A stretch of 64,000 nucleotides of DNA from NCBI RefSeq assembly GCF_900100875.1, contig NZ_FNKQ01000002.1, forward strand, positions 620,001 to 684,000. The letters run 5' to 3'. The notes beneath the pieces were generated by a model. The model made no database searches, was not told where the DNA came from, and was given only the letters and a program-made list of their open reading frames with translations. Both the position numbers and the translations under genes were made by a program. Below are positions 45,130 through 52,700 of this stretch, piece after piece. The first letter of the stretch is position 1, and each line of letters opens with the position of its first letter. Source of the DNA: Halopelagius longus (GTDB taxonomy: Archaea; Halobacteriota; Halobacteria; Halobacteriales; Haloferacaceae).

Positions 45130-47223
45130 ATGGGAGAGTTATCTGAGTTGTTCGTGCCCGAGCGAATCGCCGTGGTGGGTGCGACAGAGCGCGAAGGCTC
45201 CGTCGGTCGCGCCATCATGGAGAACCTCGTGGACGACTTCGACGGGGAGGTCGTCCCCGTCAACCCGAAGTACGACGAGGTTTTCGGTCTCCCGGCGGTT
45301 TCGGGCGTCGGCGACGCCGAGGCGGACCTCGCCGTCGTCGTCGTCCCGCCGCACATCGCGGTGGACGTCGTCGAGAACGCCGGCGAGGCGGGCGTCTCGA
45401 ACGTCGTCGTCATCACCGCCGGGTTCGGCGAGACGGGGACGGAGGGCGCGACGCGGGAGCAGGAACTGACCGCCGTCGCCGAGGAGTACGACATGAACCT
45501 CGTCGGCCCGAACAGCCTCGGCATCATGTCCACGCCGAACGGCATGAACGCCACGTTCGGCCCCGAGAACGCCACGTCGGGGTCGATGTCGTTCATGAGC
45601 CAGTCGGGCGCGTTCATCACCGCGGTGCTCGACTGGGCCAACGACCAGGGAATCGGCTTCAAAGACGTCGTCTCCTTGGGTAACAAGGCCGTCTTGGACG
45701 AGGCGGACTTCGTCGATACGTGGGGCGACGACGAGGACACCGACGTCATCATCGGCTACCTCGAAGGCATCGACGCCGGACGGGCGTTCATCGACACCGC
45801 GCGCGAAGTCACGAGCGACACGCCGATCGTCCTCGTGAAGTCCGGCCGGACGGACGCCGGCGCGCAGGCCGCCTCCAGTCACACGGGCACCATCGCGGGG
45901 TCCGACGAGGCGTACGAGGCGGGCCTCGAACAGGCGGGCGTCATCCGCGCGGAGTCCGTCCAAGAACTGTTCGACGCCGCGCGCGTCCTCGAAAACCAGC
46001 CGCTCCCCGAGAACGACGACATCGCCGTCATCACGAACGCCGGCGGTCCCGGCGTGATGACCACCGACGCCGTCGGCGACTCCCGCCTCTCGATGGCGGA
46101 GTTCACCGACGAGACGCTCGATACGTTCTCTGAGACGCTCCCCGAAGAGGGGAACATCTTCAACCCCGTCGACATCGTCGGCGACGCCGACAACGAGCGG
46201 TTCCGCGAGGCTCTCGACGTGGCCCTCGCCGACGAGAACGTCGGGGCGGCCCTCGTCCTCAGTTGTCCGACGGCCGTCCTCGACTACGGGCAACTCGCCG
46301 AGGACACCGTCGAACTGCAGGAGAAACACGACAAACCCGTCGCGGCCTGCTTCATGGGCGGAGAACGCGTCGAATCCGCCGCCGAGGTGCTCACCGACGC
46401 CGGCATCCCCAACTACTTCGACCCGGCCCGCGCCGTCGGCGGCCTCGACGCCCTCTCGCGGTTCCGCGACATCAGCCGACGCGAGTACGACGACCCCGTC
46501 GAGTTCGACGTGGACCGAGAGCGCGCCCGCGAGATTCTCGAGAGCGTGAAGGGCCGCGACGACACCCGCCTCGGCGTCGAGGCGATGGACCTCTTGGACG
46601 CCTACGGCATCGAGACGCCGGAGGGCGACATCGTGGACGCGCCCGCCGACGCCCTCGAAGTCGCAGAGGGGATAGAGGGCGACGTGGTGATGAAGATAGT
46701 CAGCCCCGACATCCTCCACAAGTCCGACATCGGCGGCGTCAAAGTCGGCGTCGCAGACGAGGAGGTGTACGACGCCTACGAGGACCTCGTCACGCGGGCG
46801 CGGAACTACCAGCCCGACGCCAACATCATCGGCGTGCAGGTCCAAGAGATGGTGGACTTAGACAGCGGCGTCGAGACCATCGTCGGCATGAACAAGGACC
46901 CGCAGTTCGGACCGTTACTCATGTTCGGTCTCGGCGGCATCTTCGTCGAAGTGCTCGAAGACACGACGTTCCGCGTCGCGCCCGTCTCCGAGTCCGAAGC
47001 CACAGAGATGACCGAAGAGATAGACTCCGCGCCGCTTCTCCGCGGCGCGCGCGGCCGCGACCCCGTGGACGTAGACGGCGTCTCGGAGACCATCCAGTGC
47101 CTCTCGCAACTCGTCACGGACTTCCCGGCCATCCTCGAACTGGACATCAACCCGCTGGTCGCCACGCCCGACGGCGTGCAAGCCGTGGACGTGCGACTCA
47201 CCGTCGACCCCGACCAACTGTAG
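45130..47223 (+). CDS. acd: ADP-forming acyl-CoA synthetase (acetate/acyl-CoA ligase)
   Basis: This is a 697-residue fused alpha-beta enzyme that converts acyl-CoA, ADP and Pi to the acid, CoA and ATP. The CoA-binding domain starts RIAVVGATEREGSVGRAIM (about residues 12-30), and succinyl-CoA synthetase-like domains follow with VGPNSLGIM and MSFMSQSGAF. The phosphorylated His of the alpha part is probably in SSHTGTIAGS (about 249). The ATP-grasp beta part begins at about 460, with DVVMKIVSPDILHKSDIGG (about 517) and the final ELDINPL. In haloarchaea this is the main acetate-forming enzyme. The next gene starts four bases after its stop. Confidence 0.93.
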   Translation: MGELSELFVPERIAVVGATEREGSVGRAIMENLVDDFDGEVVPVNPKYDEVFGLPAVSGVGDAEADLAVVVVPPHIAVDVVENAGEAGVSNVVVITAGFGETGTEGATREQELTAVAEEYDMNLVGPNSLGIMSTPNGMNATFGPENATSGSMSFMSQSGAFITAVLDWANDQGIGFKDVVSLGNKAVLDEADFVDTWGDDEDTDVIIGYLEGIDAGRAFIDTAREVTSDTPIVLVKSGRTDAGAQAASSHTGTIAGSDEAYEAGLEQAGVIRAESVQELFDAARVLENQPLPENDDIAVITNAGGPGVMTTDAVGDSRLSMAEFTDETLDTFSETLPEEGNIFNPVDIVGDADNERFREALDVALADENVGAALVLSCPTAVLDYGQLAEDTVELQEKHDKPVAACFMGGERVESAAEVLTDAGIPNYFDPARAVGGLDALSRFRDISRREYDDPVEFDVDRERAREILESVKGRDDTRLGVEAMDLLDAYGIETPEGDIVDAPADALEVAEGIEGDVVMKIVSPDILHKSDIGGVKVGVADEEVYDAYEDLVTRARNYQPDANIIGVQVQEMVDLDSGVETIVGMNKDPQFGPLLMFGLGGIFVEVLEDTTFRVAPVSESEATEMTEEIDSAPLLRGARGRDPVDVDGVSETIQCLSQLVTDFPAILELDINPLVATPDGVQAVDVRLTVDPDQL

Positions 47224-47227
47224 ACCC

Positions 47228-48313
47228 ATGAACACGCTACTCGTCACCTCGACCCACGAAAGTACCGGCAAGACGGCCGTCACCCTCGCGCTCGGCCAAC
47301 TCGCGAACGAACGCGGCCTCGACGTGGGCTACATGAAGCCCAAGGGCACGCGCCTGCAGTCGAACGTCGGCAAGACGCTCGATCAGGACCCGATGCTGGC
47401 GCGCGAGGTGCTCGACCTCGACGCCGAGATGCACCAGATGGAGCCCGTCGTCTACTCGCCGACGTTCATCGACGGGGCCATCCGCGGACAGGAGGACGGC
47501 GAGGAACTCGGCGAGATAATCGAGGAGTACTTCGGCCAACTCGCGGAGGGGAAAGACCTCATGCTCGTCGAGGGCGGCGGCGTCTGGTCCACCGGCGGCA
47601 TCGTGGACCTGACGGACGTGGACGTGGCCGACCGCCTCGACGCGGGCGTCCTCCTCGTCGCCGACTACCAGAAGACGACCGACTTAGACGACGTCATCGC
47701 CGCCGCAGAGCAGTTCGGCGACCGACTGACGGGCGTCCTCTTCAACGGCGTCACGGACAGCGCCTTCGACGAACTCGAACAGGAGGTCGTCCCCTTCCTC
47801 GAAGGCCGCGACATCCCCGTCCTCGGCGTCGTCCCGCGCGAACAGGAACTCGCGGGCGTCACCGTCGAGGGACTCGCCGACGAACTCGGCGCGAACCTCG
47901 TCACCGGCGGCGAGACGGACGCCTACGTCGAACGCTTCCTCGTCGGCGCGATGGGCGGCGACGCCGCCCTGCGGTACTTCCGCCGCACGAAGGACGCCGC
48001 GGTCATCACCGGCGGCGACCGCTCCGAGATAATCACCGCGGCCCTCGAAGCGCCCGGCGTCAAGACCATCATCCTCACCGGCGGCCACCGGCCCTCCGGC
48101 GCGGTTCTCGGCAAGGCCGAATCGAAGGGCGTGCCGGTGATGATGGTCAACGGCGACACCCTCACCGTCGTGGACCGCGCGGAGGACGTCATCCGTTCGG
48201 GCCGCACCCGCGACGAACGCACGGTGGACCTGATGCGCGACCTGCTCTTCGAACACACCGACGTGGACGCACTCGTCGGCGAAGTCGCCCCCGACGAGGA
48301 CGAAGAGTCCTGA
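47228..48313 (+). CDS. Phosphotransacetylase N-terminal-type protein (P-loop plus DRTGG domain)
   Basis: This is a 361-residue protein. The P-loop domain LLVTSTHESTGKTAVTLALG (about residues 4-23, STGKT) belongs to the BioD/CobB-like AAA_26 family, with VEGGGVWSTGG further on. The C-terminal DRTGG domain begins LVGAMGGDAALRYFRRTKDA (about 238) and includes VITGGDRSEIITAALE. This combination equals the regulatory N-terminal half of long phosphotransacetylases, but the catalytic Pta domain is missing. Being directly downstream of acd, it may regulate or sense acetyl-CoA or nucleotides in acetate metabolism. Confidence 0.85.
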   Translation: MNTLLVTSTHESTGKTAVTLALGQLANERGLDVGYMKPKGTRLQSNVGKTLDQDPMLAREVLDLDAEMHQMEPVVYSPTFIDGAIRGQEDGEELGEIIEEYFGQLAEGKDLMLVEGGGVWSTGGIVDLTDVDVADRLDAGVLLVADYQKTTDLDDVIAAAEQFGDRLTGVLFNGVTDSAFDELEQEVVPFLEGRDIPVLGVVPREQELAGVTVEGLADELGANLVTGGETDAYVERFLVGAMGGDAALRYFRRTKDAAVITGGDRSEIITAALEAPGVKTIILTGGHRPSGAVLGKAESKGVPVMMVNGDTLTVVDRAEDVIRSGRTRDERTVDLMRDLLFEHTDVDALVGEVAPDEDEES

Positions 48314-48649: not shown

Positions 48650-49771
48650 ATGTCTATCGTGGTTTACGAGACGGGAAACGAGACGGTCGACGACGCGGTC
48701 CGGCGGGTTCTCGACGGCGAAACCCTCGATCGGACCGATGGGCTGGCGCTTATCGCCCAACCGCCCGACGCGCTGGCCGCGGGCGCCGACATCGTACGCC
48801 GCCACTACTCGGACGGCACGGTCGACGCCTGCAGTATCGTCAACGCCAAGGCGGGCAATTGCGCCGAAGACTGTGGCTTCTGTGCGCAGTCAACCCATTT
48901 CGACACCGGAATCGACACCTACGGCTTTCTCGGGCCGGAGAAGGTGCTCGAAGCCGCGAAACGAGCCGAGGAGGACGGCGCCCAGCGGTTCGGCATCGTC
49001 GTCGCCGAGAAGGGCGTCTCGAAGGAACACCGGCCCGACGAGTGGGACGAAATCGTCGAGGCCATCCGCCTCGTCCGGGACGAAACCGATGTCGAGGTCG
49101 ACGCCTCACTCGGTCTGCTGACGCAGGAAGAGGCCGACGAACTCGCCGCCGAGGGACTCAACCACTACAATCACAACATCGAGACCTCGCGGCGCTACTT
49201 CCCTGAGATCATCGGGACCCACTCCTTCGAGGACCGCCTCAAGACCCTCCGACGCGCCAAGAATGCGGGCATGGATCTCTGTGCCGGCGTCATTCTCGGC
49301 ATGGGCGAATCGCCGACTGACCGGGTTGATGCCGCCATCGAACTGCAGGATATCGGCGTCTCCTCGCTGCCGGTCAACATCCTCAACCCCGTCGAAGGGA
49401 CCCCCCTGGGCGATGCCGACCACGCTTCCATCTCGAAGACGGAGATCCTCAAGACCATCGCGGTCTACCGCTTCTTGCATCCCGATTCGAGGGTCCGGCT
49501 GACCGGCGGCCGCGAGGTCAACCTCGCGCCCCACGAGCAACATCTCCCGTTCGAGGCCGGGGCGGACGGCCTGCTGACCGGCGACTATCTCACGACGGAA
49601 GGCCAAGACCCCGGCGACGACATCGAGATCGTGCAGCGGGCCGGACTGGAGCCGAACCGCGAGGTCAACGAGTTCGACCCCGCCGAGGTCAAGGAACGGC
49701 ACCACCAGCCGACGCCGGACACCGCCGCCGGCACCGCAACGAGTAACGCGACGAACGAACTGGACGACTGA
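48650..49771 (+). CDS. bioB: Biotin synthase
   Basis: This is a 373-residue radical-SAM enzyme that inserts sulfur into dethiobiotin. The radical-SAM Cys motif is NCAEDCGFCAQSTHFDTGI (about residues 66-84; C-x3-C-x2-C). The family's LNHYNHNIETSRRYFPEI (about 171-188) and CAGVILGMGESPTDRV (about 209-224) follow, then a C-terminal part with LTGGREVNLAPHEQHLPFEA. The last 30 residues are an extension rich in Thr/Ala. It is the first gene of bioB-bioU-bioF-bioD. GATC and GAT codons are more frequent than in flanking genes, pointing to acquisition by transfer. Confidence 0.97.
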   Translation: MSIVVYETGNETVDDAVRRVLDGETLDRTDGLALIAQPPDALAAGADIVRRHYSDGTVDACSIVNAKAGNCAEDCGFCAQSTHFDTGIDTYGFLGPEKVLEAAKRAEEDGAQRFGIVVAEKGVSKEHRPDEWDEIVEAIRLVRDETDVEVDASLGLLTQEEADELAAEGLNHYNHNIETSRRYFPEIIGTHSFEDRLKTLRRAKNAGMDLCAGVILGMGESPTDRVDAAIELQDIGVSSLPVNILNPVEGTPLGDADHASISKTEILKTIAVYRFLHPDSRVRLTGGREVNLAPHEQHLPFEAGADGLLTGDYLTTEGQDPGDDIEIVQRAGLEPNREVNEFDPAEVKERHHQPTPDTAAGTATSNATNELDD

Positions 49772-49802
49772 TCAGCGATTTCGACACACCATCATACCAA
49801 CT

Positions 49803-50831
49803 ATGGACGAGATCAATTTCGCAGTTCTCGGTACCGGAGGTATCGGTCGACGAGCACTCGACTACTCCACACAGAAAGACCATCTCACCCCAGTTGCGGC
49901 CTGTGACCGGCATGGCGTCGCCGTCGACCACGACGGCCTCGACGTGGACGAACTGCTGGCGGCGACGGAAGGAAATATCGCAAACGACGGCGGCACACAG
50001 ACCGTCAAGCAATCGGGTTCGATGAAGGGCGTCGCCGCCTCCGCGCAGGCCGATCCCACCGAAACGCCCATCGACGATATCATCGACGTATCGGACGCCA
50101 TCGACGCCGTACTCATCGCCCTGCCGAACCTCGAGCACGACTTCGTACCGAACGTCGGCGAGCGTTTCGCCGAAGCCGGCTACGAAGGCGTGCTCGTGGA
50201 CGTACTCAAGCGCTCCCGCGTCATCGACATCCTCGACGCGCGCGAGGAGACCTACGAGGATTCGGGCATCACGTTCGTCTGCGGCGCGGGCGCGACCCCC
50301 GGCTTCCTGACGGGAGCGGCCGCACTCGCCGCGCAGTCCTTCGTCGAAATCGAAGAGGTCGAAATCTGGTGGGGCGTCGGCCTCAAATCGGGCTACGAGG
50401 ACAACCGTGGCACCGTCCGCGAGGATATCGCCCACCTCGACGGCTACGACATCGAGACGGCCCGCAACCTCACCGACGAGGAGATCGAGGAGATCGTCGA
50501 GGAACACGATGGCCGCATCGAGTTCAACGATATGGAGCACGCCGATGACGTCCTCCTGGAACGGGCCGGCATCTGTGACGCCGAGGACGTCACCGTCGGC
50601 GGCATCCTCGACGTCCGCTCCGACGAGAAGCCGACGACGACCACCGTCAGCGTTACGGGTCGAACCTTCGACGGTGAGCGCGGGACGAACACGTTCCAAC
50701 TCGACGACGTCACGAGCATGGAAGCCAACGTCAACGGCCCTGCCCTCGGTTACATGAAGGCGGGCGTTCGCCGGAACCGCGCAGGCGAGTACGGCGTCTT
50801 CGGTCCCGCTGATCTGATGCCAGGGTTCTGA
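49803..50831 (+). CDS. bioU: Probable BioU, lysine-donating DAPA synthase (saccharopine dehydrogenase-like)
   Basis: This is a 342-residue oxidoreductase-like protein. The dinucleotide fold is INFAVLGTGGIGRRALDY (about residues 4-21), and the central region holds DAVLIALPNLEHDFVP and VDVLKRSRVIDIL (Lys 136). It sits between bioB and bioF, exactly where the aminotransferase BioA would be expected, and no bioA is present in the operon. BioU, known from cyanobacteria, converts KAPA to DAPA in a single turnover using the amino group of its own lysine. Lys 136 is my candidate donor, by position after the nucleotide domain. An unrelated dehydrogenase is the alternative. Confidence 0.75.
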   Translation: MDEINFAVLGTGGIGRRALDYSTQKDHLTPVAACDRHGVAVDHDGLDVDELLAATEGNIANDGGTQTVKQSGSMKGVAASAQADPTETPIDDIIDVSDAIDAVLIALPNLEHDFVPNVGERFAEAGYEGVLVDVLKRSRVIDILDAREETYEDSGITFVCGAGATPGFLTGAAALAAQSFVEIEEVEIWWGVGLKSGYEDNRGTVREDIAHLDGYDIETARNLTDEEIEEIVEEHDGRIEFNDMEHADDVLLERAGICDAEDVTVGGILDVRSDEKPTTTTVSVTGRTFDGERGTNTFQLDDVTSMEANVNGPALGYMKAGVRRNRAGEYGVFGPADLMPGF

Positions 50832-50835
50832 CGGC

Positions 50836-52035
50836 ATGGACCACCAGCACGCCCACGGCTTCGACCTTCAAACGCGCCTCCGCGAAAGGGAACGGGCCGA
50901 CCTTCGTCGGTCGTTGGACCCCATCGAGGAGGTGTCGGCGCGTGCCCGTGTCGCCGACGACTCCGCAGGCGAGACGCCGTCTTTCGACGAGGAGCGACTC
51001 GTCTTCGCGGCGAACAACTACCTCGGTTTGGCGGGCGACGAGCGCGTCGCAACGGCAGCCGCCGAGGCGGCCCGCGAGGTCGGCACCGGCGCCGGTGCCT
51101 CCCGGCTCGTCGTCGGCGACACGCCCGCCCATCGATCGCTCGAACGGCGACTGGCCGACGAGAAGGACGCCGAGCGCGCGCTGGCCTTCTCGTCGGGCTA
51201 CGCCGCAAACGTCGGGACGATCACCGCGCTGGATCCCGACGTCATCTTCTCCGACGAGTTGAATCATGCCAGCATCGTCGACGGCGCGCGACTCTCGGGC
51301 GCCGACATCGTAATCTATGACCACTGCGATGCGAACGCGCTCACCGAAGCCATGGCCGACCGTGCCGAGATAGCGGAACCCGACGACTCGTGGCTCATCA
51401 TCACCGACTCGGTGTTTTCGATGGACGGCGACGTGGCACCGCTGGACGCTATCTGTGAGGCTGCAACGAACTACGGCGCGTGGACGATGGTCGACGAGGC
51501 CCACGCCACGGGCGTCTACGACGGCGGTATCGTCGGCGAGCGCGGCCTGACCGACCGCGTCGACGTGCAGTTGGGAACGCTCTCGAAGGCGCTCGGGGCA
51601 CAGGGCGGCTTCGTCGCCGGCGACGAGACGCTCGTCGAGCACCTGCTCAACGCCGCCCGGTCGTTCGTCTTCTCGACAGGACTGGCACCGCCGGCGGCAG
51701 CCGCGGCCGAACGCGCACTAGCGTTGGCGTCCGAACGGCGCGATGCCTTAAAAACGAACGTCGAACGCCTCCGTGAGGGCCTCGAAGCGATGGGTTACGA
51801 GGTCTGGGGTGACACCCACATCCTACCCGTCGTGGTCGGCGACCGCGAGGCTGCTCTCGCCCTGGACGACCGCCTGCGCGAGGACGGCATCGTCGCCCCG
51901 GCCATCCGGCCGCCGACGGTCCCCGAGGGCACCAGCCGGATTCGACTGGCACCGCAGGCGACCCACACGGCGGCGGACATCGACCGCTGTCTGGCCGGCT
52001 TCGAGGCCGCCGGCGAGGAGGTGGGTTTGCTGTGA
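50836..52035 (+). CDS. bioF: 8-amino-7-oxononanoate (KAPA) synthase
   Basis: This is a 399-residue PLP enzyme of the alpha-oxoamine synthase family. It joins pimeloyl-CoA/ACP and alanine to make KAPA. Motifs are FAANNYLGLAGDERV (about residues 58-72), SSGYAANVG, FSDELNHASIVDGARL (catalytic His), TMVDEAHATGVYDGG and the PLP-lysine motif GTLSKALGAQGG (about 249-260). It starts four bases after bioU, and its stop overlaps the bioD GTG (GTGA). It supplies the substrate of BioU. Confidence 0.96.
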   Translation: MDHQHAHGFDLQTRLRERERADLRRSLDPIEEVSARARVADDSAGETPSFDEERLVFAANNYLGLAGDERVATAAAEAAREVGTGAGASRLVVGDTPAHRSLERRLADEKDAERALAFSSGYAANVGTITALDPDVIFSDELNHASIVDGARLSGADIVIYDHCDANALTEAMADRAEIAEPDDSWLIITDSVFSMDGDVAPLDAICEAATNYGAWTMVDEAHATGVYDGGIVGERGLTDRVDVQLGTLSKALGAQGGFVAGDETLVEHLLNAARSFVFSTGLAPPAAAAAERALALASERRDALKTNVERLREGLEAMGYEVWGDTHILPVVVGDREAALALDDRLREDGIVAPAIRPPTVPEGTSRIRLAPQATHTAADIDRCLAGFEAAGEEVGLL

Positions 52036-52700
52036 GCGTCGCGGTCGTCGGAACCGATACGGGCGTCGGCAAGACAGTCGTCACGGCGGCGCTTGTCGTA
52101 CGCTTGCGAGCCCAGGGGACCGACGCCCGAGCCATCAAACCCGCCCAGACCGGATTTCCGGAGGATGACGACGCCGACTACGTCCGCTGTGTTTGCGAGG
52201 ACGAGGCGGCCGCCGTCCGCCTGCGAACGTACGGGGAGCCGCTGGCGCCCGCCGTTGCGGCACGGCGGGCCGACGACCCTATCGATTACGAGACGCTACT
52301 GGAGGACACCCGTGGGGCGATGGCGAACACCGACGTCGGTGTCGTGGAAGGCGCTGGCGGGCTTCGCGTCCCGCTGTCGAACGAGCCTCGACGGGAGATC
52401 GTCGACCTCGTTTCGGACCTCGACGTGCCGGCACTCGTGGTTGCACGGTCGGGGCTCGGCACCCTGAACCACACAGCGCTGACCGTCGAGGCCCTCCGCG
52501 CCCGCGACATCTCGGTCCTCGGGGTCGCGCTGAACCGCTATGAAGGTGCGTCGGTCGCCGAGCGCACCAATCCCGAGGAAGTCGAACGGATGTGTGACTG
52601 TCCGGTCTGGACGCTGTCGGAGTCGGAGTTGGAGACGCCAGAGGACGTCCGAAAACTCGCCGAAAGCCTTCCGCCGCTCCACAGACAGCTGAGGGAGTGA
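52032..52700 (+). CDS. bioD: Dethiobiotin synthetase
   Basis: This is a 222-residue P-loop ATPase that closes the ureido ring of biotin using CO2 and ATP. The P-loop is VVGTDTGVGKTVVTAAL (about residues 5-21). The conserved substrate region is AIKPAQTGFP (about 39-48, usual K-P-x-Q-T-G). The EGAGG motif is VVEGAGGLRVPLS (about 108-120). Full length. The GTG start overlaps the bioF stop, indicating coupled translation. It is the last gene of the operon; no bioY or birA is seen. Confidence 0.96.
   Translation: MSVAVVGTDTGVGKTVVTAALVVRLRAQGTDARAIKPAQTGFPEDDDADYVRCVCEDEAAAVRLRTYGEPLAPAVAARRADDPIDYETLLEDTRGAMANTDVGVVEGAGGLRVPLSNEPRREIVDLVSDLDVPALVVARSGLGTLNHTALTVEALRARDISVLGVALNRYEGASVAERTNPEEVERMCDCPVWTLSESELETPEDVRKLAESLPPLHRQLRE

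Follow-up and report, generated by a model that had tools for sequence, protein, structure and literature searches.

A four-gene biotin operon in Halopelagius longus

The window analysed here is a 64,000-nucleotide stretch of the genome of Halopelagius longus (3.87 Mb in 8 contigs, completeness 99.82%). An earlier note, made from the sequence alone, had described in this window a biotin operon of four tightly packed genes, bioB, a probable bioU, bioF and bioD, at positions 48650-52700, and this layout was borne out: the open reading frames lie at the positions given below, all on the + strand, with intergenic spacings of 31, 4 and -4 bases, the last being a 4-base overlap of bioF and bioD.

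48650..49771, + strand: bioB, biotin synthase, 373 aa (ATG start at 48650 read in the sequence)
49803..50831, + strand: bioU, putative KAPA-to-DAPA enzyme, 342 aa (phmmer, NF047886 and Foldseek)
50208..50210, + strand: Lys136 codon of bioU, expected sacrificial amino donor (corresponding to Lys124 of Synechocystis BioU)
50538..50540, + strand: His246 codon of bioU, in the motif MEHADD (corresponding to His233 of Synechocystis BioU)
50836..52035, + strand: bioF, 8-amino-7-oxononanoate (KAPA) synthase, 399 aa (best family TIGR00858)
52032..52700, + strand: bioD, dethiobiotin synthetase, 222 aa (TIGR00347 over cut-off)

In the comparison with NCBIfam, BioB scored 345.7 bits against TIGR00433 (cut-off 225) and BioD 122.1 bits against TIGR00347 (cut-off 83.3); BioF reached 393.6 bits against TIGR00858, which is below the cut-off of 426.45, yet this was its best match among all families. 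BioB also carries the Pfam domains Radical_SAM and BATS, and its radical-SAM motif, NCAEDCGFCAQ, is intact. A second, lone bioB lies near a ParA-like gene on contig C4 (119778-120899); its motif reads CTEDCGFG against the pattern CxEDCxFC, with glycine for the third cluster cysteine, and no other BioB motif found in the loci fetched shows this change. Upstream of the operon, on the same strand of the window (45130-48313), we found an ADP-forming acyl-CoA synthetase and an AAA_26-DRTGG protein, a pair that in 20 of 80 relatives stands downstream of the operon on the opposite strand.

The second gene encodes a BioU homologue

We then examined the 342-residue product of the second gene, which the earlier note had proposed to be BioU, the protein that makes DAPA in cyanobacteria. 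A phmmer search of the PDB chains up to E 0.1 returned Synechocystis Slr0355/BioU as the sole match (E 8.4e-83, residues 5-342, 45% identity). The only NCBIfam match was likewise the BioU model NF047886 (331 bits, E = 7e-99), whereas Pfam gave a weak Rossmann match and detected no DNA-binding domain. The score of 331 bits misses the naming cut-off of NF047886, set at 600 bits; indeed, none of the 393 genomes of the phylum passes it, the best score being 430 bits. The threshold was presumably set on cyanobacterial sequences, and it is a threshold for naming, not a functional feature.

The structural comparison with cyanobacterial BioU that the earlier note had called for was made with a structure predicted from 24 aligned archaeal sequences (mean pLDDT 86; residues 58-72 below 50). 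Foldseek ranked the five BioU entries 6k36, 6k37, 6k38, 6itd and 6ir4 in places 1-5, with TM scores of 0.91-0.96 and rmsd values of 1.4-1.5 to these crystal structures, and amino acid dehydrogenases followed from rank 6 onward with TM scores of about 0.5. The identification of the protein as BioU (EC 2.6.1.121 type) thus finds agreement in the phmmer match, the predicted fold, the catalytic residues and the position in the operon.

As for the catalytic residues, the phmmer alignment places Lys136 (VDVLKRS) at Lys124 of Synechocystis BioU, the residue mutated in 6itd and 6k37, and His246 (MEHADD) at His233, mutated in 6k38; the 6itd and 6k38 chains indeed carry K124A and H233A, respectively, as their entry titles say. 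Conservation was read from 118 distinct sequences, namely 117 archaeal ones, partial sequences included, and that of Synechocystis; most of these are haloarchaeal and related to one another, and the set therefore measures constraint rather than independent events. Lysine occupies the donor position in all 117 readable sequences, and histidine the second position in 118 of 118. The window protein has seven lysines, of which Lys136 and Lys276 alone are invariant in this set. The earlier note had singled out Lys136 as the candidate donor and had regarded the lack of a conserved lysine in alignment as evidence against BioU; both its numbering and its choice of residue proved sound. We also sought a relative lacking the donor lysine among the 118 sequences and found none. 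A Haloferax mediterranei homologue may have serine at this position; the Haloferax BioU sequences in this analysis have lysine there.

No BioA over cut-off in the genome or in 146 genomes of the order

BioA, the DAPA-forming aminotransferase that the note had found lacking in the operon, is missing also from the rest of the 99.82% complete genome, where no gene reaches the TIGR00508 cut-off of 405 bits in a whole-genome profile search (best score 225.8); the bioA elsewhere that the note would have counted against its proposal thus did not turn up. The model picks up four class III aminotransferases at 110-226 bits, with ArgD/LysJ, diaminobutyrate transaminase, the PRK05769 acetylornithine-type enzymes and HemL as their best families, and a hidden BioA was ruled out by these model scores together with the other best families of all four. 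Furthermore, BioA exceeded the cut-off in none of the 146 genomes of the order, compared with 6 of 14 control genomes searched with the same profile.

BioU accompanies bioB across haloarchaea

Among the 146 genomes of the order, bioB was found over the cut-off in 51 and bioU in 48, with both in 47, so that bioB stands without bioU in 4 genomes and bioU without bioB in 1, a genome that is 71% complete (Fisher p about 1e-32 for the co-occurrence, shared ancestry ignored). In the stretches read from the four bioB-only genomes, bioB stands by itself in three and together with bioF in one; a lone bioB may serve the salvage of dethiobiotin. Of 80 loci from named haloarchaea, 71 show the full bioB-bioU-bioF-bioD arrangement, and a contig end truncates 5 of the remaining 9; these comparisons looked for known neighbours only. 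Halorientalis salina has two BioU copies, the second of which is accompanied by bioB only in the stretch fetched.

Within the family of H. longus, a strong BioU match occurs in only 10 of 170 genomes, and the other genome of its genus with a listed match has only a weak, partial one (E 7e-5) and no BioU. A quick tree placed the window BioU beside sequences of Natronomonas, Haloarculaceae or unassigned MAGs (branch support 80-94, not starred), apart from the Haloferax-like BioU sequences of its own family. This placement and the patchy spread within the family suggest that BioU has been exchanged among haloarchaea. BioU genes of Haloferax larsenii, Haladaptatus, Natrinema and Natronococcus were found on records listed as plasmids, so that megaplasmids were possibly a vehicle of this exchange. 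Two other carriers were considered and rejected: a viral scan confirmed nothing, and all plasmid matches were haloarchaeal, none pointing to a cyanobacterial plasmid.

Outside the order, the phylum sample yielded BioU, complete or in part, in two genomes (G422 and G427), both from a single further archaeal family and both with bioF and bioD. The G422 protein scored 430 bits against the family model, above any haloarchaeal BioU seen, and its bioB lies about 0.8 kb away.

The annotation of haloarchaeal BioU

The Haloferax larsenii orthologue (NZ_CP078064.1, 68444-69472) is named 'transcriptional regulator' in RefSeq, although the flanking bioB, bioF and bioD are named, and the same label is found on the BioU of four Haladaptatus plasmids and one Natrinema record. 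Public annotation thus hides BioU in archaea, since the naming cut-off of NF047886 is set too high to admit them. No report of an archaeal BioU was found in the literature searched, which did not include the original description of BioU (Sakaki et al. 2020).

In a 2018 survey of archaea, 31 Halobacteria included 18 with bioF, 14 with bioD and 19 with bioB, but 0 with bioA and none with bioW (PMC6138646), and BioU would explain this tabulated gap. As far as sequence and modelled fold indicate, the 342-residue protein is thus a conserved, poorly annotated haloarchaeal BioU that closes it. In Haloferax mediterranei, HFX_5076, 5077 and 5079 are bioD, bioF and bioB, whose expression drops jointly when an Lsm-gene mutant is starved of nitrogen (PMC10779274); the skipped number, HFX_5078, presumably stands where bioU would be. 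Natrialba magadii, a biotin auxotroph, is reported to have BioYMN and no biosynthetic genes (PMC3403918), and BioU is present in other Natrialba species among the named haloarchaea listed.

Proposed pathway and its alternatives

In the known reaction, BioU uses NAD(P)H to couple KAPA to its Lys124 and carboxylates the resulting adduct; NAD(P)+ then serves to free the carbamate, and the lysine remains irreversibly modified (PMC12915131; a brief account of the same mechanism is given in PMC7133116). Carried over to Lys136 by homology to Synechocystis BioU, this chemistry would have the ε-amino group of Lys136 bind KAPA and NAD(P)H reduce the imine; the KAPA-Lys136 conjugate would then be carboxylated with CO2, and oxidation would free a DAPA-carbamate bearing the Lys136 nitrogen. 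Lys136 would be left as allysine, and each BioU molecule could therefore act once. In the complete pathway, BioF would convert a pimeloyl thioester into KAPA, BioU would turn KAPA into DAPA as the carbamate, and BioD would close the ureido ring before BioB inserts sulfur. We consider it very probable that the operon leads from a pimeloyl thioester to biotin in this manner, with BioU carrying out the KAPA-to-DAPA step once per molecule. The single turnover in the archaeon is deduced from the residues and the fold, and the operon would presumably be put to this use in the living cell.

A biotin demand is evident in the genome, which encodes an acyl-CoA carboxylase with the biotin site EAMKMEN and, about 1 kb from it, a biotin ligase. 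A BioY importer with an adjoining ATPase is encoded as well, so H. longus may also import biotin; with this reservation, one protein would be spent per biotin only for biotin made de novo. As regards the start of the pathway, the profile search found no BioW in the genome and no BioC over its cut-off (best 68.5 against 185). Since neither was found, haloarchaea with the operon might conceivably combine de novo synthesis through a sacrificial BioU with a pimeloyl donor from an undescribed route, a tentative reading that we hold to be possible rather than likely. The start of the pathway is likewise open in cyanobacteria (PMC12903740).

The presence of BioY with its ATPase, together with the missing BioW and over-cut-off BioC, also accords with the view that the operon contributes little, the biotin being taken up by BioY or the genes serving the salvage of KAPA or dethiobiotin only; the retention of bioB alone in some relatives and the weak partial match of the genus mate point in the same direction. 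We regard this as unlikely, because the four genes are intact and stay together across haloarchaeal families, and because bioB, bioF and bioD are expressed and co-regulated in H. mediterranei (PMC10779274). Less plausible still is a haloarchaeal BioU that makes DAPA over many turnovers, either with free lysine or some other amine as nitrogen source or with regeneration of its own lysine after each round. A turnover number is not readable from sequence, and the next relatives in fold, DAP dehydrogenase and lysine dehydrogenase, are multi-turnover enzymes, but it is hard to see why an enzyme supplied by a free amine should need the donor lysine, which is invariant in 117 sequences, and only bioB, bioF and bioD, among the known neighbours sought, were seen to recur beside bioU.

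We attach almost no weight to the proposal that one of the four class III aminotransferases forms DAPA and that the BioU-like protein does other work, such as regulation. It would agree with the RefSeq name of the Haloferax larsenii orthologue, and enzymes of this class can be promiscuous, which makes a side activity on KAPA conceivable. However, all four belong to other best families and score 110-226 bits against the BioA cut-off of 405, and the BioU protein corresponds along its full length to a BioU of solved structure and has no DNA-binding domain in Pfam. If the sacrificial BioU reaction is true, one protein would be consumed for each biotin made in about a third of the 146 genomes sampled from the order, and the single turnover could be tested in vivo since BioU occurs in tractable haloarchaeal genera, for example Haloferax and Haloarcula.

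Comparison with known systems

BioA (TIGR00508) is assigned the same KAPA-to-DAPA step, but its PLP fold is unrelated to that of BioU. In archaea, the bioFADB clusters of Methanococcales and Thaumarchaeota (PMC6138646) resemble the window operon in grouping the late biotin pathway, and differ in using BioA where the operon has BioU. Lysine dehydrogenase (3abi) and meso-DAP dehydrogenase (1dap) share a related dehydrogenase fold (TM about 0.5), yet they act on free amino acids over many turnovers and score far under the BioU entries.

The closest system is BioU (Slr0355) of Synechocystis sp. PCC 6803, which the window protein resembles over its whole length in sequence and fold, in both matched residues, Lys124 and His233, and in filling the same place in a pathway without BioA. 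It differs from the cyanobacterial protein in its archaeal host, its bioB-bioU-bioF-bioD operon, its score below the NCBI BioU cut-off and an additional segment, modelled with low confidence, around residues 55-75. The haloarchaeal BioU is accordingly a widespread addition to a known family and no singular oddity.
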